Origin: Pseudomonas lutea
Lineage (GTDB): Bacteria > Pseudomonadota > Gammaproteobacteria > Pseudomonadales > Pseudomonadaceae
Assembly: GCF_000759445.1 (NCBI RefSeq)
Contig: NZ_JRMB01000001.1
Coordinates: 1,612,001 to 1,676,000 of the forward strand
Direction of reading: 5' to 3'
Length of the DNA stretch: 64,000 nt
In this document: positions 29,783 through 41,636 of the stretch, piece after piece
Layout: each line of letters starts with the position of its first letter
Position numbering within the stretch: the first letter of the stretch is position 1
Notes under the pieces: generated by a model
What the model was told of the DNA's origin: nothing
Databases searched by the model: none
What the model saw: only the letters and a program-made list of their open reading frames with translations
Made by a program: the position numbers and the translations under genes

Positions 29783-30964
29783 TCAGCCCGGCACCCGCAC
29801 CCACCCTTCCATCAACACCCGTGCGCTGCGGCTCATGATGGCTTTTTTGACTTGCCATTCGCCGTTGACTTGCGCCGCTTCGGCGCCGACCCGCAACGTT
29901 CCGGAGGGATGACCGAAACGCACCGCGCTGCGTTCGCCGCCGCCCGCTGCCAGGTTGACCAGCGTGCCGGGAATCGCCGCTGCGGTGCCGATGGCCACCG
30001 CCGCCGTGCCCATCATCGCGTGATGGAGTTTGCCCATGGACATGGCCCGCACCAGCAGGTCAGTGTCCTGGGGTGTGACCCTTTTGCCGCTGGAAGAAAG
30101 GTACTCTGCCGGCGGCGCCACGAACGCAACTTTTGGCGTGTGCTGACGGGTGACAGCCTCATCCACATTGCCGATCAGGCCCATGCGCACCGCGCCATAG
30201 GCGCGGATCGTTTCGAACATGCTCAAGGCGTTCGGATCGCTGTTGATCGCGTCCTGCAGCTCGCTGCCGGTGTAGCCGATGGCGGCGGCGTCCACGAAGA
30301 TGGTCGGGATGCCGGCGTTGATCATCGTCACCTTTAACGTACCCAACCCCGGCACCTCAAGGTCATCAACCAGATTGCCGGTCGGGAACATCGAGCCGCC
30401 AGCACCTTCCTCTTCTGCGGCAGGGTCCATGAACTCCAATTGCACTTCGGCCGCAGGAAAGGTCACGCCATCGAGCTCGAAGTCGCCGGTTTCCTGCACC
30501 ACGCCGTCTGTGATCGGCACGTGGGCAATGATGGTTTTGCCGATATTGACCTGCCAGATACGCACCACCGCCACACCGTTGCGGGGAATTCGCGCCGGAT
30601 CAACCAGGCCGTTGCTGATCGCAAACGGCCCGACCGCCGCCGAAAGATTGCCGCAGTTGCCGCTCCAGTCGACGAAAGGCTTGTCGATGGAGACCTGACC
30701 AAACAGGTAATCGACGTCGTGGTCGGCGCGGCTGCTCTTTGACAGGATCACCGTCTTGCTGGTGCTTGAGGTCGCGCCGCCCATGCCATCGATCTGCTTG
30801 GCGTAAGGGTCTGGGCTGCCGATCACCCGCAGCAACAACGCATCACGTGCCGGCCCGGCAGTTTGCGCCGCTTCAGGCAAGTCGCCGAGCAGGAAAAACA
30901 CGCCCTTGCTGGTGCCCCCGCGCATATACGTGGCGGGAATTCTGATCTGTGCTGCGTTAGCCAT
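29783..30964 (-). CDS. prpF: 2-methylaconitate cis-trans isomerase PrpF
   Basis: Protein of 393 residues. It starts MANAAQIRIPATYMRGGTSK, the typical PrpF N-terminus. A central SGNCGNLSAAVGPFAI has the catalytic cysteine region of the diaminopimelate-epimerase-like fold, and GKLHHAMMGTAAVAIG is conserved. It isomerises the trans-2-methylaconitate made by AcnD so that an aconitase can finish 2-methylisocitrate formation. Last gene of the prpB-prpC-acnD-prpF operon. Confidence 0.95.
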   Translation of the reverse strand: MANAAQIRIPATYMRGGTSKGVFFLLGDLPEAAQTAGPARDALLLRVIGSPDPYAKQIDGMGGATSSTSKTVILSKSSRADHDVDYLFGQVSIDKPFVDWSGNCGNLSAAVGPFAISNGLVDPARIPRNGVAVVRIWQVNIGKTIIAHVPITDGVVQETGDFELDGVTFPAAEVQLEFMDPAAEEEGAGGSMFPTGNLVDDLEVPGLGTLKVTMINAGIPTIFVDAAAIGYTGSELQDAINSDPNALSMFETIRAYGAVRMGLIGNVDEAVTRQHTPKVAFVAPPAEYLSSSGKRVTPQDTDLLVRAMSMGKLHHAMMGTAAVAIGTAAAIPGTLVNLAAGGGERSAVRFGHPSGTLRVGAEAAQVNGEWQVKKAIMSRSARVLMEGWVRVPG

Positions 30965-31015
30965 GAATGGGTCCTTCTTATTCTTTCTAATCCAGAGAGC
31001 CGAGTGTGCGACGGC

Positions 31016-33610
31016 TCAGGCAACGGCCGACGATTCGAGGAAGTCCTGGGCAAAGCGTTGCAACACGCCACCGGCCTCGTAGATCAACACTTCTTCACCG
31101 GTGTCCAGACGGCAGGTCACCGGCACCTCCACACGCTCGCCGGTCTTGCGCTGGATAATCAGCGTCAGCGTGGCACCCGGAGTGCGCGCACCCACCACGT
31201 CATAGGTTTCACTGCCATCGATGCCCAGGGTCAGTCGGTTGGTCCCCGGTTTGAACTCCAGTGGCAGCACGCCCATGCCTACCAGATTGGTGCGATGGAT
31301 ACGCTCGAACCCTTCCGCGACGATGACCTCCACGCCTGCCAGCCGCACCCCTTTGGCCGCCCAGTCACGGGAAGAACCCTGGCCGTAGTCGGCACCCGCA
31401 ATGATGATCAACGGCTGCTTGCGCGCCATGTAGGTTTCGATGGCCTCCCACATCCGTGTCACCGTGCCTTCCGGCTCGATCCGAGCGTACGAGCCCTGCT
31501 TGACCTTGCCGTTCTCGCGCACCATCTCGTTGAACAGTTTAGGGTTGGCGAACGTGGCGCGCTGAGCGGTCAGGTGGTCACCGCGATGGGTCGCGTACGA
31601 GTTGAAGTCTTCTTCCGGTAGGCCCATCTTCTCCAGGTATTCCCCCGCCGCGCTGTCGAGCATGATCGCGTTGGAGGGCGACAGGTGATCGGTAGTGATG
31701 TTGTCCGGCAGCACCGCCAGCGGTCGCATGCCGCGCAGGGTTCGCTCGCCGGCCAGCGCGCCTTCCCAATACGGCGGGCGGCGAATGTACGTACTCATGG
31801 GACGCCAGTCGTACAGCGGCGCGACTTTCGGGCCGGTGTCTTCGTGGATGGCGAACATCGGGATGTACACCTGACGGAACTGTTCGGGCTTAACCGACGC
31901 CTTCACCACCTCATCGATCTCGGCGTCGCTCGGCCAGAGGTCCTTCAGGCGGATTTCTTCGCCGTTCGGACCGAGGCCCAGCACATCTTTCTCGATATCG
32001 AAGCGAATCGTACCGGCGATGGCGTAGGCCACCACCAGCGGGGGCGAGGCGAGAAACGCCTGCTTGGCGTAAGGGTGAATGCGTCCGTCGAAGTTGCGGT
32101 TGCCCGACAACACCGCCGTGGCATACAGATCGCGGTCGATGATTTCCTGCTGGATCGCGGGGTCCAGGGCCCCGGACATCCCGTTGCAGGTGGTGCAGGC
32201 GAAGGCCACGACGCCGAAGCCCAACTGTTCCAGTTCCGAGGTCAAACCCGCTTCGTCCAGGTACAGCGCGACGGTCTTTGAGCCCGGCGCAAGAGACGAC
32301 TTCACCCAAGGCTTGCGCACCAGCCCCAGGCGATTGGCGTTGCGCGCCAGCAGGCCGGCGGCGATGACGTTGCGCGGGTTGCTGGTGTTGGTGCAACTGG
32401 TGATCGCGGCGATGATGACCGCGCCGTCCGGCATTTCGCCCGGTGTCTCCAACCACGGCGCCGCGATGCCTTTGGCGGCGAGATCGCTGGTTGCTACCCG
32501 AGCATGGGGATTGGACGGGCCGGCCATGTTGCGCACCACGCTGGACAGGTCGAAATGCAGCACCCGCTCGTATTCGGCGCTCTCCAGGCTATCCGCCCAC
32601 AGCCCCGCCTGCCGGGCATAGGTTTCCACCAGCTGCACTTGCGCGTCTTCGCGGCCGGTCAGCCTGAGGTAGTCGATGGTCTGTTGATCGATGGCGAACA
32701 TCGCCGCCGTCGCCCCGTATTCAGGGGCCATGTTGGAAATGGTCGCGCGATCGCCAAGGGTCAGCGCGCGGGCGCCCTCCCCGTAGAACTCCAGGTACGC
32801 GCCAACCACTTTCTGCTGACGCAGGTATTCGGTGAGCGCCAGCACCACATCGGTGGCGGTGATGCCTGGCTGCGGACGGCCGGCAAGCTCCACGCCAATG
32901 ATGTCCGGCAGGCGCATCCACGAGGCGCGGCCGAGCATGACGTTCTCGGCCTCAAGGCCGCCTACGCCTATAGCGATGACGCCCAGGGCGTCCACATGCG
33001 GGGTGTGACTGTCGGTGCCGACCAGCGTATCGGGGAAGGCCACCCCGTTGAGCGTCTGGATGACCGGCGACATCCGCTCCAGATTGATCTGGTGCATGAT
33101 GCCGTTCCCTGGCGGGATGACTTCAACGTTCTTGAACGCCTGCTTGGTCCAGTTGATGAAGTGAAAGCGGTCTTCGTTGCGACGGTCTTCGATCGCGCGG
33201 TTCTTGGTAAACGCATCCGGGTCGTAACCGCCACATTCGACGGCCAGCGAGTGGTCGACAATGAGTTGCACCGGCACCACCGGGTTGACCTGCGCCGGGT
33301 CGCCGCCCATGTCGGCGATGGCGTCGCGCAAGCCGGCGAGGTCCACCAACGCGGTTTGGCCGAGGATGTCATGGCACACCACCCGCGCCGGAAACCACGG
33401 AAAGTCGAGGTCGCGCTTGCGCTCGATCAATTGCGTGAGGGAGGCCGTCAGGGTTGTCGGGTGGCAACGACGGACCAGGTTTTCAGCGAGCACGCGGGAG
33501 GTGTACGGCAGCGTGTCGTAAGCACCGGGCCGGATAGAATCGACCGCCGCGCGGGCGTCGTAGTAATCCAGCGAAGTGCCGGGCAGTGGTGTGCGGTATT
33601 CAGTGTTCAT
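31016..33610 (-). CDS. acnD: Fe/S-dependent 2-methylisocitrate dehydratase AcnD
   Basis: Aconitase-family enzyme of 864 residues. 4Fe-4S ligands are in SCTNTSNPRNV and CTTCNGMSG. Also seen are VGTDSHTPHVDALGVIAIG near 200-218, the swivel domain with SSRDWAAKG and a C-terminal RTPGATLTLI. AcnD dehydrates 2-methylcitrate; it is used with PrpF in place of PrpD. It follows prpC by 62 bases in the operon. The ATG at 33610 begins MNTEYRTPLPG, as in homologues. Confidence 0.96.
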   Translation of the reverse strand: MNTEYRTPLPGTSLDYYDARAAVDSIRPGAYDTLPYTSRVLAENLVRRCHPTTLTASLTQLIERKRDLDFPWFPARVVCHDILGQTALVDLAGLRDAIADMGGDPAQVNPVVPVQLIVDHSLAVECGGYDPDAFTKNRAIEDRRNEDRFHFINWTKQAFKNVEVIPPGNGIMHQINLERMSPVIQTLNGVAFPDTLVGTDSHTPHVDALGVIAIGVGGLEAENVMLGRASWMRLPDIIGVELAGRPQPGITATDVVLALTEYLRQQKVVGAYLEFYGEGARALTLGDRATISNMAPEYGATAAMFAIDQQTIDYLRLTGREDAQVQLVETYARQAGLWADSLESAEYERVLHFDLSSVVRNMAGPSNPHARVATSDLAAKGIAAPWLETPGEMPDGAVIIAAITSCTNTSNPRNVIAAGLLARNANRLGLVRKPWVKSSLAPGSKTVALYLDEAGLTSELEQLGFGVVAFACTTCNGMSGALDPAIQQEIIDRDLYATAVLSGNRNFDGRIHPYAKQAFLASPPLVVAYAIAGTIRFDIEKDVLGLGPNGEEIRLKDLWPSDAEIDEVVKASVKPEQFRQVYIPMFAIHEDTGPKVAPLYDWRPMSTYIRRPPYWEGALAGERTLRGMRPLAVLPDNITTDHLSPSNAIMLDSAAGEYLEKMGLPEEDFNSYATHRGDHLTAQRATFANPKLFNEMVRENGKVKQGSYARIEPEGTVTRMWEAIETYMARKQPLIIIAGADYGQGSSRDWAAKGVRLAGVEVIVAEGFERIHRTNLVGMGVLPLEFKPGTNRLTLGIDGSETYDVVGARTPGATLTLIIQRKTGERVEVPVTCRLDTGEEVLIYEAGGVLQRFAQDFLESSAVA

Positions 33611-33672
33611 CGTCAGGACTCGATCACGGAAAAGTTACGGGTGGAGAGCCCCGTGGAACTCTCCTTTGCCCA

Positions 33673-34800
33673 TCAGCGCTGTTCGATTGGCACGAATTTG
33701 CGCTGCTCGACGCCGATGTACTCGGCGCTCGGTCGGATGATGCGGTTGTTGGCACGCTGTTCGAAGACGTGAGCGGCCCAGCCGGTCAGGCGCGAGCAGA
33801 CGAATATCGGCGTGAACAGCTTGGTCGGGATACCCATGAAGTGGTACGCCGAGGCGTGGTAGAAGTCAGCATTGGGAAAGAGCTTCTTCTGCTCCCACAT
33901 GGTCTTGTCGATGGCTTCGGACACCGGGAACAGCACCGTGTCGCCCAGCTCCTCCGCGAGCTTTTTCGACCAGCCCTTGATCACCTCGTTACGCGGATCG
34001 CTGTCTTTATAGATCGCATGACCGAAGCCCATGATCTTGTCCTTGCGCTCCAGCATCGCCAGCGTGCCCTTGGCGGCCTCTTCAGCAGACGAGAACTTCT
34101 CGATCATCTCCATCGCCGCCTCGTTGGCGCCGCCATGCAACGGGCCGCGCAAGGTGCCAATGGCCGCCGTGATGCAGGAGAACAGGTCGGACAAGGTCGA
34201 AGCGCAGACGCGCGCGGTGAAGGTCGATGCGTTGAACTCGTGCTCGGCGTAAAGGATCAACGAGACGTCCATGACCTTGCGATGCAACTCGCTGGGCGCC
34301 TTGTCCAGCAGCAGTTTCAGGAAATGCCCGGCGATCGACACCTCGTCGGTGACGCAATCGATGCGCTTGCCCTCATGGCTGAAGCGGTACCAGTAGCACA
34401 TGATCGCCGGGAAGGCGGCGAGCAGCCGGTCGGTGGAATCGAGTTGTTGAGCGAAGCTGGATTCAGGCTCCAGGTTGCCGAGCATTGAGCAGCCAGTGCG
34501 CATGACGTCCATCGGGTGGGCGTCAGCGGGAATGCGCTCAAGCACCTCTTTCAGCGCCTGGGGCAGGTCGCGCAGGCCCTGGAGCTTTTGCAGGTAACCG
34601 TCGAGTTGCGATTGAGTCGGCAGTGCGCCGTACAGCAGCAGGTAGGCGACTTCTTCAAACCGGGCGTCGGCGGCCAGGTCCTTCACATCATAGCCACGGT
34701 AGGTCAATCCGGCACCGGCCTGGCCAACGGTGGACAACGCGGTCTGTCCGGCCACCTGGCCCCGCAGGCCTGCACCGCTCAGTACTTTTGCTTCAGCCAT
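33673..34800 (-). CDS. prpC: 2-methylcitrate synthase PrpC
   Basis: Citrate-synthase-family enzyme of 375 residues from ATG 34800 (MAEAKVLSGAGLRGQ). Catalytic histidines are in LHGGANEAAM and GFGHAIYKDSDPR, and the C-terminal catalytic aspartate region precedes TPIFVCSRLTGW. It condenses propionyl-CoA with oxaloacetate. A REP pair (34886-34973) separates it from prpB, which may lower or stabilise the downstream part of the transcript. Confidence 0.95.
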   Translation of the reverse strand: MAEAKVLSGAGLRGQVAGQTALSTVGQAGAGLTYRGYDVKDLAADARFEEVAYLLLYGALPTQSQLDGYLQKLQGLRDLPQALKEVLERIPADAHPMDVMRTGCSMLGNLEPESSFAQQLDSTDRLLAAFPAIMCYWYRFSHEGKRIDCVTDEVSIAGHFLKLLLDKAPSELHRKVMDVSLILYAEHEFNASTFTARVCASTLSDLFSCITAAIGTLRGPLHGGANEAAMEMIEKFSSAEEAAKGTLAMLERKDKIMGFGHAIYKDSDPRNEVIKGWSKKLAEELGDTVLFPVSEAIDKTMWEQKKLFPNADFYHASAYHFMGIPTKLFTPIFVCSRLTGWAAHVFEQRANNRIIRPSAEYIGVEQRKFVPIEQR

Positions 34801-34885
34801 TGCTGTCTCCAGTCTTGTAGTTGTGGGAATCGGCAATTCAGTTTTGTAAGTCAGCCAAATATCGCTGGGTATACCCGCCCCCTTT

Positions 34886-34973
34886 GTAGGAGCGCGCTTG
34901 CCCGCGAAAGCGTCGTGTCAGCAAATTTCATCGTCAGCTGGAAGAAAGCATTCGCCGGCAAGCGCGCTCCTGC
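34886..34973. repeat. Inverted REP pair between prpB and prpC
   Basis: GTAGGAGCGCGCTTGCCCGC at 34886 and the inverse arm GGCAAGCGCGCTCCTGC ending at 34973 form a hairpin-capable pair, inside the operon. It is the same family as the 199-bp array at 3601-4830. Confidence 0.85.
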
Positions 34974-34985
34974 ACCTGGGCGTGG

Positions 34986-35876
34986 TCAGCCTTTCTTCTG
35001 TGCAAACAGCGCATCGAGCTTCTGCTCGAACGCGTGGTAATCGATGCGCTCGTACAACTCCATTCGGGTCTGCATGGTGTCGATGACATTCTGCTGCGTC
35101 CCGTCGCGACGGATGGCGTTATAGACGTTCTCGGCCGCCTTGTTCATCGCCCGGAACGCAGACAGCGGATACAACACCAGCGCGACTTCGGCCGACTTCA
35201 GCTGTTCGGTGGTGAACAGTGGGGTCGAGCCAAATTCAGTGATATTGGCGAGAATGGGCGCCTTCACGCGCGAAGCGAACAGCTTGTACATGTCCAGTTC
35301 GGTGATCGCTTCAGGGAAGACCATGTCGGCGCCTGCTTCGATGCACGCCGCAGCCCGGTCAAGTGCCGACTCCAGGCCTTCCACCGCCAGCGCGTCCGTT
35401 CGCGCCATGATCACAAAGCTGTCATCGGTGCGCGCGTCGACGGCTGCCTTGATCCGATCAACCATCTCCTGCTGCGAGACGATCTCTTTACCCGGCCGAT
35501 GACCGCAGCGCTTGGCTCCGACCTGGTCTTCGATGTGCATCGCGGCCGCGCCGAACTTGATCATCGATTTGACGGTGCGCGCGACATTGAATGCCGAAGC
35601 GCCGAAACCGGTGTCGACGTCCACCAGCAGCGGCAGCTCGCAGACATCGGTGATGCGGCGCACGTCGGTGAGCACGTCATCCAGCCCGGTAATGCCCAGG
35701 TCCGGCACGCCCAGAGAGCCCGCGGCGACACCGCCACCGGACAGGTAAATGGCCTTGAAGCCGGCCCGTTGCGCGAGCAGCGCGTGGTTGGCGTTGATCG
35801 TGCCGACCACCTGCAGCGGGTGTTCGCTGGCCACGGCATCACGGAAGCGTTGGCCGGGAGTGGTGCGTGTTGTCAT
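34986..35876 (-). CDS. prpB: 2-methylisocitrate lyase PrpB
   Basis: Protein of 296 residues of the isocitrate-lyase superfamily. Catalytic loop [10 protein letters not shown] (cysteine and histidine), metal-binding DVDTGFG, and [16 protein letters not shown]. It cleaves 2-methylisocitrate into pyruvate and succinate. The start overlaps the end of the upstream GntR gene by 4 bases, so regulator and enzyme are one transcript. Confidence 0.96.
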
Positions 35877-36580
35877 TGTTCACCTCGGGCAGTTGCAGCT
35901 TGAAAATGCTGCTCAATGTTGCGTTTGGACGCGGCGATGTGGCGGCGCATCAACAGCTCGGCAAGCTCGCCGTCGCGGTCGGCAATGGCGTCGAGAATCC
36001 GGTGATGCTCGCTGAACGCTTGGCGCGGACGGTTGGGCGTGGTCGAAAACTGGATGCGGTACATGCGCACCAGTTGGTAAAGGTCATCGCACAGCATCTG
36101 CGTCAGCGTGCTGTTGCGCGCGCCCTGAATGATCCGGTAATGAAAATCGAAGTCGCCTTCCTGCTGGTAGTAGCCAACCCCGGCCTGAAAAGCAGTGTCC
36201 CGCTCATGGGTTTCCAGCACCCGACGCAGTTCGGCGACTTCCTCAACGCTCATGCGCTCGGCCGCCAGGCGGCACGCCATGCCTTCAAGAGACTCACGGA
36301 TTTCGTACAGCTCGACCAGCTCGGCGTGGCTCAACGAGACGACGCGTGCGCCAACGTGGGGGATGCGAACCAGCAAACGCTGGCCTTCCAGCCGGTGTAT
36401 AGCCTCGCGCAACGGTCCCCGGCTGATGCCGTAGGTCCGCGCCAGCTCGGGTTCGGAAATCTTGCTGCCGGGCGCAATATCGCCCTTGACGATGGCAGCC
36501 TGGATGCGGCGAAAAACGTTCTCGGACAGTGTTTCGGCATCGACAGCATTAGCGGGCAGGACTTCCGCTGCATCCAACAT
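35873..36580 (-). CDS. GntR-family regulator of the methylcitrate operon
   Basis: FadR/FCD-type GntR protein of 235 residues. ATG 36580 is preferred because GATGAGG lies 8 bases upstream; GTG 36589 is an alternative. N-terminal winged helix: [33 protein letters not shown]-terminal all-helical ligand domain with histidines typical of metal binding ([29 protein letters not shown]). It heads the prpB-prpC-acnD-prpF operon with a 4-base overlap. A perfect palindrome lies 71 bases upstream. It probably represses the operon until a methylcitrate intermediate binds. Confidence 0.88.
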
Positions 36581-36650
36581 TGTTGACACCTCATCTGTGA
36601 ATAGCCCTGAATCTAGCCAAAGATGAGGCTCGCGTCAAAGCTAAACCGCT

Positions 36651-36664
36651 GATTGTCGACAATC
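36651..36664. promoter_or_regulatory. Palindrome, candidate operator of the prp operon
   Basis: GATTGTCGACAATC is a perfect 14-bp palindrome in the promoter region upstream of the GntR gene. FCD-type GntR repressors often bind short palindromes of the TTGTNNACAA kind. Its position suggests autoregulation. Confidence 0.5.
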
Positions 36665-36870
36665 GTCTAATACCTCAGCCGATCAGGGCAGTCTCCGACA
36701 ACACGTATCCGCGTTCCCCTTCACTGGCGCCATAAAACCTTCATGCTAGAATGCGGCCCGCCTCAGACTGCCGATCCGTCCAGCAGGCGCTTTGCCGCAA
36801 GGTCGCGCTGAAACACAGCACCGCACCCTGACGTCAAAGCAGCTCCCTCACTTTCATCGCGCCTGGACTT
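36665..36870. other. Divergent promoter region between the prp operon and the retropepsin-like gene
   Basis: The plus strand carries TGCTAGAAT (36744-36752), an extended -10 type element about 120 bases before the retropepsin-like gene. No good -35 was seen. Otherwise no gene, repeat or RNA was recognised. Confidence 0.35.
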
Positions 36871-37419
36871 ATGAGCCGCCACCCTCTTCTCTTCCTGCTC
36901 TCCCTCTATTTACCGGGTCTTTTTCTGCCCGGACTGTGTCAGGCCGCCGAAAAGACCGTCTATGGCTTGAACGAGTACGCAGAGCTTGCGGACATCGATC
37001 TGCAGGTCGCGGCCAAGCTGGACACCGGTGCCAAAACCGCCTCCCTCAGTGCCCGTGACATCAAACGCTTCAAGCGCAACGGTGAATCGTGGGTGCGCTT
37101 TTATCTGGCGATCGACGATGCCCACGAACACCCCATCGAACGTCCTCTGGCGCGCGTCAGCAAGATCAAGCGCCGCGCCGGGGACATCGATGCCGACGAC
37201 GACAAGAAATACACCGCCCGCCCGGTCATCAGCCTTGATGTGTGCATGGGCAGTGCGCTGCGCAACATAGAAGTGAACTTGACCGATCGCAGCGCATTCC
37301 AATACCCGCTTTTGATTGGCTCCGAAGCCCTCAAGCACTTCGACGCGCTGGTCGACCCAAGCCTGAAATACGCAGCAGGCAAGCCTGCCTGCGTCACCCA
37401 TGCTCAAACCGCAGAGTAA
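36871..37419 (+). CDS. Exported retropepsin-like protein (PF05618, 'ATP-dependent zinc protease' family)
   Basis: Protein of 182 residues with an N-terminal signal (hydrophobic segment ending LCQAAEK). The core has the aspartic-protease-type motif KLDTGAKTASLSA near residues 43-55, and the C-terminal LLIGSEALKHF resembles the second strand-loop of the retropepsin fold. The old name 'ATP-dependent zinc protease' is unsupported by the motif. It is the first of three genes together with an inactive-transglutaminase/7TM protein and an ATP-grasp ligase. Its substrate is unknown; a single DTG site implies a dimer if it acts as a protease. Confidence 0.8.
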   Translation: MSRHPLLFLLSLYLPGLFLPGLCQAAEKTVYGLNEYAELADIDLQVAAKLDTGAKTASLSARDIKRFKRNGESWVRFYLAIDDAHEHPIERPLARVSKIKRRAGDIDADDDKKYTARPVISLDVCMGSALRNIEVNLTDRSAFQYPLLIGSEALKHFDALVDPSLKYAAGKPACVTHAQTAE

Positions 37420-37423
37420 CGAC

Positions 37424-38974
37424 ATGCGCTCTCTTACCCTCCATCTGAAAATCCTGATCGCGACCCTTGTGACACTGGGCATCGCCATCACGGCTTACCA
37501 GATATTGGTGCTCGGCATTCCGGTGACCGAAGACGAAACCGACGACCTGTGGAACATCGACGCCAAAGTCGAGTTCGTCGCCAATCCCAAAGACACGGTC
37601 AAAGTGCAGATGTATGTGCCGCCCCTGTCGCGCGACTACATCAGCCTCAATGAAAGCTTTATCTCCAACAACTATGGCGTGAACGTCAACCGCGCCGACG
37701 GCAACCGCAAAGTCACCTGGTCGGCGCGGCGGGCCAACGGTAACCAGACGCTGTATTACCGACTGGTACTGACCAAGCGTTACAGCGGCGAAAAAGCCAA
37801 GGTCAAGGGCCCGATCTTCCGCGACAGCATCGTCGTCGAAGGCCCGGAAAAAATTGCCGCCGACGCGCTGCTTGCGCCCATCCGCCAGCATTCCGCCGAC
37901 GTCGAGACCTTCGTCAGCGAAGCCATCAAACGCGTCAATAATCTGAGCGACGACAACGTCAAGCTGCTGCTGGCGGGTGATACGTCGGTACAGAACAAGG
38001 CGCGCATCACCGAAACCCTGTTGTCCATTGCCCACGTGCCCGTGGAGAAGGTGCACACCATTCGCCTGGTGGCCGACCAGCCGCAGTCCCCCGAGCTGTG
38101 GTTGCGCAGTTTCAATGGCAAGGACTGGCTGTATTTCAACCCCGACACCGGCGAGGCCGGCCTGCCGCAGGATCGCCTGCTCTGGTGGATTGGCGACGAC
38201 AACCTGATCTCCGTCGAAGGCGGCAAGAAGGCCACCGTCAGCTTCAGTCTGAACAACAGCGAAATGAACGCGATCCGTCTGGCCAAGCTGACGGACGAAA
38301 GCACTGACGCCGATTTCCTCGAGTACTCGCTGTATGGCCTGCCGCTGCAGACCCAGCAGACCTTCATGATCATGGTGATGATCCCTATCGGCGTGCTGGT
38401 GATTCTGATCCTGCGCAACCTGATCGGGCTGCAGACTCTGGGCACTTTCACCCCGGTGCTGATCGCCCTGGCGTTCCGCGAGACCCAGCTGGGCTTCGGG
38501 ATTGTGTTGTTCACCATCATCACCGCGCTGGGCCTGTCGCTGCGCTCGTATCTGGAACACCTCAAGCTGCAGATGTTGCCGAGGCTCTCGGTGGTGCTGA
38601 CGTTCGTGGTGGTACTGATTGCGGCCATCAGCCTGTTCAGCCACAAGCTGGGGCTTGAGCGCGGGCTGTCGGTGGCGCTGTTCCCGATGGTGATTCTGAC
38701 CATGACCATCGAGCGTCTGTCGATCACCTGGGAAGAACGTGGCGGTGGCCATGCGATGAAAGTCGCGATCGGCACGCTGTTCGCCGCTTCTCTCGCCCAT
38801 ATCATCATGAGCGTCCCGGAGTTCATCTACTTCGTGTTCACCTTCCCGGCGATCCTGCTGATCCTCGTGGGCTTCATGCTGGCCATGGGGCGCTATCGCG
38901 GCTATCGGCTGACCGAACTGATTCGCTTCAAGGCGTTCATCAAGGAAGACGCCGAACGGGATAGCTTCAAATGA
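37424..38974 (+). CDS. Inactive transglutaminase domain fused to seven transmembrane helices
   Basis: Protein of 516 residues from ATG 37424 (MRSLTLHLKILIATL); an ATG at 37400 overlapping the previous gene is possible. Layout: one N-terminal helix (about 7-27), a large periplasmic region (about 28-305) of transglutaminase-like fold without an evident Cys-His-Asp triad, then seven hydrophobic helices (about 312-500) and a cytoplasmic basic tail. It ends overlapping the ATP-grasp gene by 4 bases. The family is known from this gene trio but has no established function. Confidence 0.8.
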   Translation: MRSLTLHLKILIATLVTLGIAITAYQILVLGIPVTEDETDDLWNIDAKVEFVANPKDTVKVQMYVPPLSRDYISLNESFISNNYGVNVNRADGNRKVTWSARRANGNQTLYYRLVLTKRYSGEKAKVKGPIFRDSIVVEGPEKIAADALLAPIRQHSADVETFVSEAIKRVNNLSDDNVKLLLAGDTSVQNKARITETLLSIAHVPVEKVHTIRLVADQPQSPELWLRSFNGKDWLYFNPDTGEAGLPQDRLLWWIGDDNLISVEGGKKATVSFSLNNSEMNAIRLAKLTDESTDADFLEYSLYGLPLQTQQTFMIMVMIPIGVLVILILRNLIGLQTLGTFTPVLIALAFRETQLGFGIVLFTIITALGLSLRSYLEHLKLQMLPRLSVVLTFVVVLIAAISLFSHKLGLERGLSVALFPMVILTMTIERLSITWEERGGGHAMKVAIGTLFAASLAHIIMSVPEFIYFVFTFPAILLILVGFMLAMGRYRGYRLTELIRFKAFIKEDAERDSFK

Positions 38975-39942
38975 TGGGCTGGTGGAAGACGTGGAAGGCG
39001 CTGGAAGCCAAGGGCATCATGGGCATCAATCGGCGCAACGCCGACTATGTGCTCAAGTACAACAAGCGCAGCCTTTACCCCATCGTCGATGACAAGATCA
39101 TCACCAAGGAGCGCGCCATTGCGGCGGGCATCCACGTGCCTGAACTGTACGGGGTTATCTCCACCGAAAAGGAGATCGACAAGCTGGATACGATCATTGG
39201 CGGACGCCGTGATTTCGTCATCAAGCCCGCCAAAGGCGCAGGCGGCGACGGCATTCTGGTCATCGCCGACCGCTTCGAAGAACGCTTCCGCACGGTCTCC
39301 GGGCGCATCATCAGCCATGAGGAAATCGAGCATCAGATTTCCAGCATCCTCACCGGCCTGTACTCCCTGGGTGGCCATCGTGACCGGGCGCTGATCGAGT
39401 ACCGCGTAACGCCCGACCAGATCTTCAAGAGCATCAGTTACGAAGGGGTGCCTGATATCCGCGTGATCGTGCTGATGGGCTATCCGGTGATGGCCATGCT
39501 GCGCCTGCCGACCCGGCAGTCCGGCGGCAAGGCCAACCTGCATCAGGGCGCCATCGGGGTCGGCGTTGACCTGGCAACCGGGTTGACCCTGCGCGGCACC
39601 TGGCTGAACAACATCATCAGCAAGCACCCCGACACCACCAATGCAGTGGACGGCGTGCAACTGCCCAATTGGGACGGCTTCATGAAACTCGCCGCCGAAT
39701 GCTACGAGCTGTGCGGGCTGGGTTACATCGGCGTCGACATGGTGCTGGACCAGGACCGCGGGCCGCTGATCCTGGAGCTTAACGCCCGGCCGGGGCTCAA
39801 CATCCAGATTGCCAACGACTGCGGGCTGACGCACCGCACCGTCGCGGTGGAGCAGCGACTGGAAACGCTAGCTGCGGAAGGTCGTCATGAGAGCCCGGAA
39901 GCGCGGGTCACGTTCGCTCAAGGGTTGTTTGGGCACGTTTGA
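38971..39942 (+). CDS. ATP-grasp ligase, alpha-L-glutamate ligase-like (RimK-related)
   Basis: Cytoplasmic protein of 323 residues. ATP-grasp motifs: DFVIKPAKGAGGDGILV near 75-91, DIRVIVLMGYPVMAM near residue 165, and the metal-binding LILELNARPGLNIQIAN near 268-284. Proteins of this type ligate an amino acid (often glutamate) to a carboxylate. Its start overlaps the 7TM gene stop by 4 bases. Together with the retropepsin-like protein it suggests a make-and-cut amide modification at the envelope, which is inference. Confidence 0.82.
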   Translation: MMGWWKTWKALEAKGIMGINRRNADYVLKYNKRSLYPIVDDKIITKERAIAAGIHVPELYGVISTEKEIDKLDTIIGGRRDFVIKPAKGAGGDGILVIADRFEERFRTVSGRIISHEEIEHQISSILTGLYSLGGHRDRALIEYRVTPDQIFKSISYEGVPDIRVIVLMGYPVMAMLRLPTRQSGGKANLHQGAIGVGVDLATGLTLRGTWLNNIISKHPDTTNAVDGVQLPNWDGFMKLAAECYELCGLGYIGVDMVLDQDRGPLILELNARPGLNIQIANDCGLTHRTVAVEQRLETLAAEGRHESPEARVTFAQGLFGHV

Positions 39943-39965
39943 GATCTGCGGCAGGCGCAGAATCT

Positions 39966-40142
39966 GCAGAAGCCGGCTTGCTGGCGAACCGGGTGGGTCA
40001 GCAATAACGGTGTTGACTGGGCCGATGCGTTCGCCAGCAAGCCGGCTCCTACAGTCGACCCAAGCCACGCCGCGAGCCTTCGCCGTACATCAAGCGCGCG
40101 CCCATAGCGAAATGCGTATGTGGGACCGGCTTTAGCCGGGAA
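39966..40142. repeat. REP pair and an extra REP of another family before pabB
   Basis: GCAGAAGCCGGCTTGCTGGC (39966) and its inverse arm ending at 40052 make a pair. A single copy of GTGGGACCGGCTTTAGCCGG follows at 40120. Two families side by side fill most of the 350 bases between the ATP-grasp gene and pabB. Confidence 0.8.
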
Positions 40143-40292
40143 GGCGTGAAGGCGTGAAGCATCGCGCCGCCAGCATTGAGGAGGGGCAAAGAATCTTGCC
40201 TGGCTCGCCGCCGGCCACAGCATTCCCCTACAACTCGGCCCCGCGGAAGACTACAATCGCCGTCCTCGCGCCCAGACTGATCCACGCCTCGC

Positions 40293-41636
40293 ATGCCTAT
40301 CTGCTCTTTACACCCACTGCCTTATCGTGCCGACCCCTGCGGGTATTTCGCCCGCGTGCGGTTTGCTCAGGGCGCCGTGCTGCTGGACAGCGGCCGCCCG
40401 ACGGCTGACCGCGGCCGCTTCGATCTGCTCAGTGCCTGGCCGCTGGACACACTGCAGCCGGTTGCGAATGAATCCGGCCCGGTCTTTCTACAGCGCCTGC
40501 GTGAGTCACTGGCCCGCCTCGGTGAAGCCGATTTACCCGAGCACTGCGCGCTGCCGTTCGCCGGCGGATTAATCGGCTATCTGGCGTACGACTTCGGCCG
40601 CCTGTTTGAACCCCTGCCCGATCAAGCCATCGATGACCTGCACCTGCCCTCCGCTCGATTGGGGCTGTATGCCTGGGCGCTGGTCAGCGATCACCAGGAG
40701 CAGACCAGCCAACTGGTGTTTCACCCGGCGCTGGCGCACGCCGAACGCCAGCACCTCATTGCGCTGTTCGAGCACCCCGCGGCGCAAGCGGACATATCGT
40801 TCAAGCTGACGGCGCCCTTCGCATCGGACATCAACGCCGGGCAGTACCGGCAGGCCATCGAGCGCATTCACGCTTATATCCAGGCGGGTGACTGCTACCA
40901 AGTCAATTTCGCCCAGCGCTTTCGCGCCTGCTTTGAAGGCGACCCATGGACGGCGTATCAGGCGCTGCGCGTCGCCTGCCCTACCCCGTTCGCCGGCTAT
41001 CTGGCCCTGCCCAAGGGCGATGCGGTGTTGAGCCTGTCACCCGAGCGGTTCGTCAAGGTGAGTCAGCGTCAGGTCGAGACGCGTCCGATCAAGGGCACCC
41101 GTCCGCGGGGTCGAAACAGCGCTGAGGACGCAGCCTTTGCCGATGAGTTGCTGGCAAGTGAGAAAGACCGCGCCGAGAACCTGATGATCGTCGACCTGCT
41201 GCGCAATGACCTGGGGCGCACCTGCCGCATCGGCTCGGTCAAGGTGCCGGAGCTGTTCAGGCTGGAAAGCTATCCCAACGTGCATCACTTGGTCAGCGCC
41301 ATTACCGGCGAGCTGGCCGAGGGCAAGGATGCGCTGGACCTGATCGGCGGCGGTTTTCCGGGTGGGTCGATCACCGGCGCGCCGAAGATCCGCGCGATGC
41401 AGATCATCGAAGAACTGGAGCCGACCCGGCGGGCCCTGTATTGCGGCTCGCTGATGTACCTGGACGTGCGCGGCGAAATGGACAGCTCCATTGCCATCCG
41501 CAGCTTGCTGGCCAAAGACGGCCAGATTGCGTGCTGGGGCGGCGGCGGCATCGTCGCTGATTCGCAGTGGGAGGCGGAGTATCAAGAGACCTTCACCAAA
41601 GTGCGGGTGTTGATGCAGACGCTTGAGAGGTTATGA
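40293..41636 (+). CDS. pabB: Aminodeoxychorismate synthase component I
   Basis: Chorismate-binding enzyme of 447 residues. N-terminal region with PFAGGLIGYLAYDFGR, then the chorismate-utilising domain with QVNFAQRF, VETRPIKGTRPRG, NLMIVDLLRNDLGR, PGGSITGAPKIRAM and CWGGGGIVADS. It aminates chorismate to 4-amino-4-deoxychorismate for folate synthesis, using ammonia from the PabA glutaminase. The DLLRNDLG variant and the lack of a fused glutaminase support PabB rather than TrpE. It appears to be monocistronic. Confidence 0.93.
   Translation: MPICSLHPLPYRADPCGYFARVRFAQGAVLLDSGRPTADRGRFDLLSAWPLDTLQPVANESGPVFLQRLRESLARLGEADLPEHCALPFAGGLIGYLAYDFGRLFEPLPDQAIDDLHLPSARLGLYAWALVSDHQEQTSQLVFHPALAHAERQHLIALFEHPAAQADISFKLTAPFASDINAGQYRQAIERIHAYIQAGDCYQVNFAQRFRACFEGDPWTAYQALRVACPTPFAGYLALPKGDAVLSLSPERFVKVSQRQVETRPIKGTRPRGRNSAEDAAFADELLASEKDRAENLMIVDLLRNDLGRTCRIGSVKVPELFRLESYPNVHHLVSAITGELAEGKDALDLIGGGFPGGSITGAPKIRAMQIIEELEPTRRALYCGSLMYLDVRGEMDSSIAIRSLLAKDGQIACWGGGGIVADSQWEAEYQETFTKVRVLMQTLERL

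Follow-up and report, generated by a model that had tools for sequence, protein, structure and literature searches.

The rloABC operon of Pseudomonas lutea and its relatives in Pseudomonadota: comparative evidence on a candidate periplasmic polyglutamate system

The rloABC operon was named and partly characterized in Pseudomonas aeruginosa PA14 and P. fluorescens by Lormand et al. (2025; PMC12239564), and we describe here the corresponding operon of Pseudomonas lutea, found in a 64,000-nucleotide stretch of contig NZ_JRMB01000001.1 (hereafter the window), together with its relatives in sampled genomes. According to that paper, RloA cleaves 8E and 10E in vitro, and not 6E or fewer; it cuts internal polyglutamate stretches as well as a C-terminal tag, it also cuts RimB substrates, and mutants altered in the catalytic site or the Arg pocket fail. 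Strains that lack all three RloA proteases do not grow in salt-free medium, and deletion of rloB or rloC in the ΔrloA1-3 background rescues growth completely and the other defects partly. Mutations in the operon affect osmotic tolerance, cell shape, biofilm, and the response to cell-wall antibiotics, including ampicillin (PMC12239564). Further articles list PA1766, PA1767, PA1768, and PA1769 in a table of suppressor mutations (PMC7314104), report parallel evolution in the PA1766-PA1768 operon (PMC10127599), and describe increased vesicle output in Shewanella on loss of an inactive transglutaminase with seven transmembrane helices (PMC12096838). In the RimB-RimK system, RimB cuts polyglutamate and stimulates RimK, giving free poly-alpha-L-glutamate in chains of up to 28-36 (PMC11957791). 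The operon and its partial characterization are already known, and what is new here is the comparative evidence.

The window carries three open reading frames (ORFs) on the + strand. The first, rloA (36871-37419), encodes an exported retropepsin-like aspartic peptidase of 182 residues with a signal-peptide-like N-terminus (residues ~1-25, judged by eye), the active-site motif DTG (Asp51-Gly53, 37021-37029, + strand), and cysteines at positions 125 and 174; it matches PF05618 (155.7 bits), the NCBIfam model NF052262 for RloA1 (336.4 bits, cut-off 280), and the solved structure 9g58 (290.6 bits, E 3.9e-86). The second, rloB (37424-38974), encodes an inner-membrane protein of 516 residues that scores 1064.3 bits against NF052267 (cut-off 900) and has database relatives of up to 97% identity. 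Its longest ORF begins at 37400 and would overlap rloA; the start at 37424 is backed by many 516-residue database relatives and by the start of the RloB profile match. Residues 39-282 (37538-38269, + strand) form a periplasmic transglutaminase/cysteine-protease fold (PF14400, 157.3 bits), and residues 260-505 (38201-38938, + strand) the 7TM_transglut membrane domain (PF14402, 325.5 bits). The third, rloC (38971-39942), encodes a cytoplasmic ATP-grasp protein of 323 residues with intact catalytic residues, which matches PF14397 (326.9 bits) and the alpha-L-glutamate-ligase-like model TIGR02291 (571.4 bits, cut-off 314.2). Counted from 37424, rloA and rloB are separated by a 4-base gap, and rloB and rloC overlap by four bases (38971-38974). 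With its A-B-C order on one strand, its tight packing, and scores above the cut-off for every one of these Pfam and NCBIfam models, the locus is an rloABC operon.

The preliminary description of this DNA had called the same gene spacing, a DTGA motif (here at Asp51), and the retropepsin-like, transglutaminase plus 7TM, and ATP-grasp domains, all of which the strand, sequence, and Pfam matches bear out. It was also right that the transglutaminase fold, itself present, lacks its catalytic triad: V, E, and N occupy the Cys, His, and Asp columns. The operon can no longer be said, as it was there, to lack a clear biochemical role, given the polyglutamate cleavage by RloA and the suppression of the RloA-less phenotype by rloB or rloC deletion in the published account (PMC12239564).

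We propose, with about even confidence, that RloC builds polyglutamate, RloB moves the chain outward, and RloA trims it. RloC would use ATP to join glutamates in the cytoplasm, most likely in alpha linkage as RimK does, with the chain either free or on an acceptor. RloB, as the obligate partner of RloC, would carry or hand the product across the inner membrane, and its periplasmic transglutaminase-fold domain, dead in Pseudomonas, may bind or guide the chain, which RloA would then cut in the periplasm. In cells without the RloA proteases, the anionic polymer would go uncut and build up in the periplasm, and the cells would fail at low osmolarity; removal of RloB or RloC would stop production and thereby give rescue. 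That RloC makes a glutamate chain and RloA cuts it is suggested by the published cleavage and rescue, the inseparability of RloB and RloC, the polyanion-binding residues of RloA, and the repeated company of RimK. We infer transport by RloB from its membrane position and from a barrel-bearing sister operon, and accumulation of uncut polymer from the published genetics. The earlier idea of an envelope system, with one component forming a bond and another trimming it, agrees with both the published genetics and biochemistry (PMC12239564) and our comparative data, with RloC as the presumed maker of the bond. The comparative evidence, presented below, narrows the substrate question to one candidate product, periplasmic polyglutamate.

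RloB and RloC are inseparable among 200 genomes drawn from the phylum Pseudomonadota. PF14402 was found in 34 of them and TIGR02291, at E 1e-3, in 55, yet by comparison of the two match lists every TIGR02291 match of at least 250 bits falls in exactly the 34 PF14402 genomes; the strong match adjoins the 7TM gene in all 34, and the next best match scores 81 bits. PF05618 is present in 72 of the 200 genomes; as counted from the list, 27 of the 34 have it immediately next to rloB. Because RloB and RloC occur in the same 34 genomes and RloA adjoins them in 27, RloB and RloC form the core of the system and RloA is a common but separable part. An independent distribution of the three genes, which the preliminary description had named as evidence against a joint function, is thus not seen for rloB and rloC and is partly seen for rloA. 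The same gene order recurs across sampled Pseudomonadota, so the arrangement is not due to chance. A relatives search on genome contigs returned only Pseudomonas among the best 80 of 571 matches, so wider diversity was drawn from the sampled genomes.

We assembled 113 RloB loci from the 34 sampled genomes, 81 of a further set of 369 genomes (four shared), and genome G208; two genomes contributed two loci, and locus L224 was dropped for lack of an RloB match. Among 102 RloC sequences, one of them from the window, each of K42, K85, D162, R164, R178, N189, H191, D256, E269, N271, and R273, which we take from their place in the motifs to be the ATP-grasp catalytic set, is kept in 99-102; loss of these residues in orthologues, the other observation raised earlier as adverse, was not seen (each in at least 99 of 102). 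RloB and RloC are fused in two cases, an 838-residue protein with an intact RloB triad (L214:4976-7489) and a similar 786-residue protein, P0108, that is close to Pseudomonas RloB.

Among the RloA-like proteins, Asp51 and Gly53 are present in 92/92, R117 in 91/92, and R140 in 90/92, while Thr52 is replaced by Ser in 24/92 and by Pro in 1/92. The RloA in the window has every published polyglutamate-contact residue, with the numbering shifted throughout by 3. Of the 92 proteins, 68 passed a crude test for N-terminal hydrophobicity, and many of the other 24 are end-cut ORFs or have uncertain starts. The polyglutamate-contact residues bear on a different explanation, that RloA acts on RloB itself: cutting RloB would shut down an activity of RloB-RloC that does harm if left unchecked, irrespective of the product of RloC. 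The loss of RloB or RloC is epistatic to the loss of RloA, and RloA and the soluble domain of RloB are predicted to share one compartment, as this explanation would have it (PMC12239564). The polyglutamate-binding mutants R114A and R137A, however, show the strongest impairment in vitro and do not function in vivo either (PMC12239564), and the near-invariance of the matching residues R117 and R140 suggests a polyanionic substrate; we regard cleavage of RloB as improbable.

That the chain is one of glutamates is also suggested by the neighbors of some RloB loci. Of the 90 loci longer than 5 kb, 6 have a full-length RimK-type ligase (>390 bits to the RimK of this genome) no more than ~1.2 kb from rloB or rloC; the 23 of the 113 loci that are under 5 kb could hardly show such linkage. 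In L186, rloA-rloB-rloC-rimK run on one strand, in L193 rimB-rimK is divergent from rloA-rloB, and in L050 the order is rimB-rimK-secreted protein-rloB-rloC; RimK is also near rloB in L219, L220, and L222, which belong to a class without RloC. Linkage was found in none of the 12 loci that bear an intact transglutaminase triad. In a whole-genome check of 80 genomes, RimK exceeded the cut-off in 53 and, as counted from the list, lay within 10 kb of RloB in five (G131, which holds L050, is outside this set), where random order would give ~0.4 such pairs (Poisson 6e-5), an expectation calculated from the rough figures of ~58 RimK genes and 3.3-Mb genomes. This linkage test was set up after the pattern had been seen, and three cases share a clade, leaving about four separate origins. 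As a separate observation, L215-L223 make up a third group of RloB-like loci, in which no RloC is adjacent; the opposite strand often carries an RloA-like gene, and three of the loci have RimK.

The neighbors also bear on the possibility that RloC attaches an amino acid to a unit of sugar or cell wall and that RloB then flips this unit. PF14397, which RloC matches at 326.9 bits, is named "Sugar-transfer associated ATP-grasp," and the cell-shape and ampicillin phenotypes (PMC12239564) also speak for this possibility. NCBIfam nevertheless places RloC in an alpha-L-glutamate-ligase-like group, and the extra neighbors in the linked loci are RimK and RimB, the other neighbors having had no scan for sugar enzymes. 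We consider the attachment of an amino acid to such a unit very unlikely.

A sister clade of RloB has an intact transglutaminase triad, which the preliminary description had not noticed. The Cys-His-Asp triad is intact in 12 of the 113 RloB loci and not in the other 101. In all 12, RloC stands beside RloB and there is no RloA-like gene within 1.5 kb. Triad-less loci with RloC have RloA upstream on the same strand in 85 cases and lack it in six (L046, L167, L180, L200, L049, and L050, the last two without a transglutaminase domain); in the remaining 10 triad-less loci, RloC is not adjacent or the locus is truncated where the contig ends. In a tree of 108 membrane domains, including 11 of the 12 triad-bearing rows, the live-triad group is one clade, arising by one change (support 100/99); five of the 113 rows, including triad-bearing L051, fell outside the tree through a short first matched stretch, L214 has a very long branch, long branches meet, and the bootstrap has not settled. 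Triad-less rows without RloA require about three changes on this tree, none with a return of the triad. We had considered a repeated trade-off in which a live triad excludes RloA and rejected it as independent evidence, the live triad being one clade and one event.

No PF05618 match was found genome-wide in 7 of the 12 triad-bearing genomes (G060, G136, G172, G208, G291, G506, and G408), and at least one was found in the other five (G096, G317, G393, G503, and G255). G255 has RloA with a triad-less RloB at one locus and a triad-bearing rloBC at another (L203, L210); its contamination is 6%, and the two may not share one cell. Four triad-less genomes have a full RloB but no RloA next to it; PF05618 occurs elsewhere in three of them (G193, G379, and G335) and is absent from G478. 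The best 120 of 1054 database relatives of a triad-bearing RloB carry PF01841, and the taxa named among those 120 are Mariprofundaceae, Gallionella, Nitrosomonadales, Chromatiales, Gammaproteobacteria, Deltaproteobacteria, and Nitrospirota. Listings of the open-access PMC literature showed no paper on triad-bearing RloB relatives or on RimK linkage. Some of these gene neighborhoods may have been described before, by Iyer et al. in 2009.

With profiles made from the genes that follow RloC in this clade, we detected a transmembrane (TM)-TPR gene in 12/12 live loci and a barrel gene in 10/12, counts in which the six live loci behind the TPR profile and the relatives of the L047 gene behind the barrel profile match by construction. 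The two barrel misses are L052, which ends 2.7 kb beyond rloB, and L214, the fused form. Neither gene was found in any of the 62 triad-less RloBC loci that hold at least 3.5 kb beyond rloB (89 such loci in all, 27 of them too short), and L219, of the class without RloC, gave a TPR match of 115 bits. The modeled barrel protein has 16 strands at a mean predicted local distance difference test (pLDDT) of 90.2, and in Foldseek porins rank first (E 3.3e-9) and AlgE, an alginate exporter, is also matched (E 5.2e-8), with modest TM-scores of ~0.40-0.46; these results identify an outer-membrane barrel and say nothing on its cargo. In L049 and L050 a secreted-looking protein of 314-315 residues, possibly also a barrel, precedes a 7TM RloB without a transglutaminase domain (L049:5963-6907, L050:6155-7096); the L049 copy had no Pfam match.

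Export bears directly on a further explanation, in which RloC adds glutamate in the cytoplasm to one specific acceptor (the C-terminus of a protein, a lipid, or a precursor of the cell wall). This acceptor would get to the envelope by a separate path, where RloB would position or sense it and RloA would take off the tag, with no free polymer. RimK glutamylates RpsF in this way, RloA does cut a C-terminal polyglutamate tag as well as internal stretches (PMC12239564), and a prediction cited in PMC10127599 has the genes of the operon modify cell-wall proteins. Tagging of one protein, however, is a poorer fit than product export to the TPR and outer-membrane barrel genes of the sister operon, and RloB is as widespread as RloC (34/34). 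We rate the tagging of a specific acceptor as rather unlikely. Returning to polymer synthesis and export, RloB-RloC may, more broadly and as a tentative reading, be a Gram-negative polyglutamate synthase-exporter with an ATP-grasp ligase: one lineage would combine a live transglutaminase with a TPR and outer-membrane-barrel route, whereas in Pseudomonas and most sampled Gammaproteobacteria having RloBC the transglutaminase would be dead and the polymer periplasmic, cut by exported RloA. The sister operon brings an outer-membrane barrel of its own, and there the product may leave the cell and be easier to find.

Around the P. lutea operon, a regulator gene (weak matches, below cut-off), which we take to be of GntR type, lies upstream on the opposite strand, followed by ordinary methylcitrate cycle genes (prpF, acnD, 2-methylcitrate synthase, and prpB; 29783-36589 with the regulator, - strand), and pabB lies downstream; no link between these flanking genes and rloABC was seen. 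In a promoter and terminator scan of 36560-40320, the only promoter-like site lay on the other strand and terminators were absent, both counts being at or below the shuffled mean. Elsewhere in the genome are a separate rimB-rimK preceded by an EAL-type gene (L002), an RloA2-like gene (L003), and two matches to PF14403, another ATP-grasp family, neither of them near rloABC.

In the PgsBCA/CapBCA poly-gamma-glutamate synthases, a ligase and a polytopic membrane protein make exported polyglutamate, and the ligase PgsB is Mur-ligase-like rather than ATP-grasp. The 7TM part of RloB shows a weak register match to CapC: against CapC from four Pseudomonadota genomes, hhalign gave P 0.0059 at a probability of 6.3%. 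On average RloB scores higher than 33 membrane decoys, a result that depends on the profile and on RloB sequences that are not independent, with 77% of the 113 above the 95th percentile of the decoys for one CapC profile and 10% for another. PF14102 (CapC/PgsC) was not among the RloB matches at E up to 1 and had no match in this genome. We therefore do not claim a link between CapC and RloB, the hhalign match being weak and the decoy comparison dependent on the CapC profile. A weak PF14102 match in G587 was dropped as a link, the protein, presumably CtaA-like, having no RloB match. The fold of the RloB membrane part has only middling neighbors (RnfA, ALMT, RND pumps); we claim no fold for it, and the lack of a better match does not speak for a new one. 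Separately, L058 (4487-7723) and matching ORFs in L059, L060, and L061 encode proteins of ~1080 residues that carry two tandem CapC domains and extend far toward the C-terminus beyond them; a second large ORF, of 818-827 residues, comes next. The genomes concerned belong to a family (f26) that also includes several triad-bearing RloBC genomes. For the region of L060 that bears CapC, the PDB gave no match at E up to 5.

Compared with the published rloABC of P. aeruginosa PA14 and P. fluorescens, the P. lutea operon has the same order and domains, and we found no difference within it; PA14 also has RloA3 (PMC12239564), whereas this genome has three PF05618 genes, read from sequence as RloA, RloA2, and RimB. 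The RimB-RimK (RimABK) system likewise pairs a retropepsin-like protease with an ATP-grasp glutamate ligase. Unlike that pair, RloA is exported and RloB has no Rim counterpart, a separate rimB-rimK exists in this genome, and the window proteins fall below the respective equivalog cut-offs (RloA 82.9 vs. 200 bits for RimB; RloC 19.8 vs. 331 bits for RimK, the S6 glutamate ligase). RloB of the "UUP1 family" shares the RloB architecture and the adjacent RloC with the window operon, and differs from it in having Cys-His-Asp, no RloA within 1.5 kb, and TM-TPR and barrel genes downstream.

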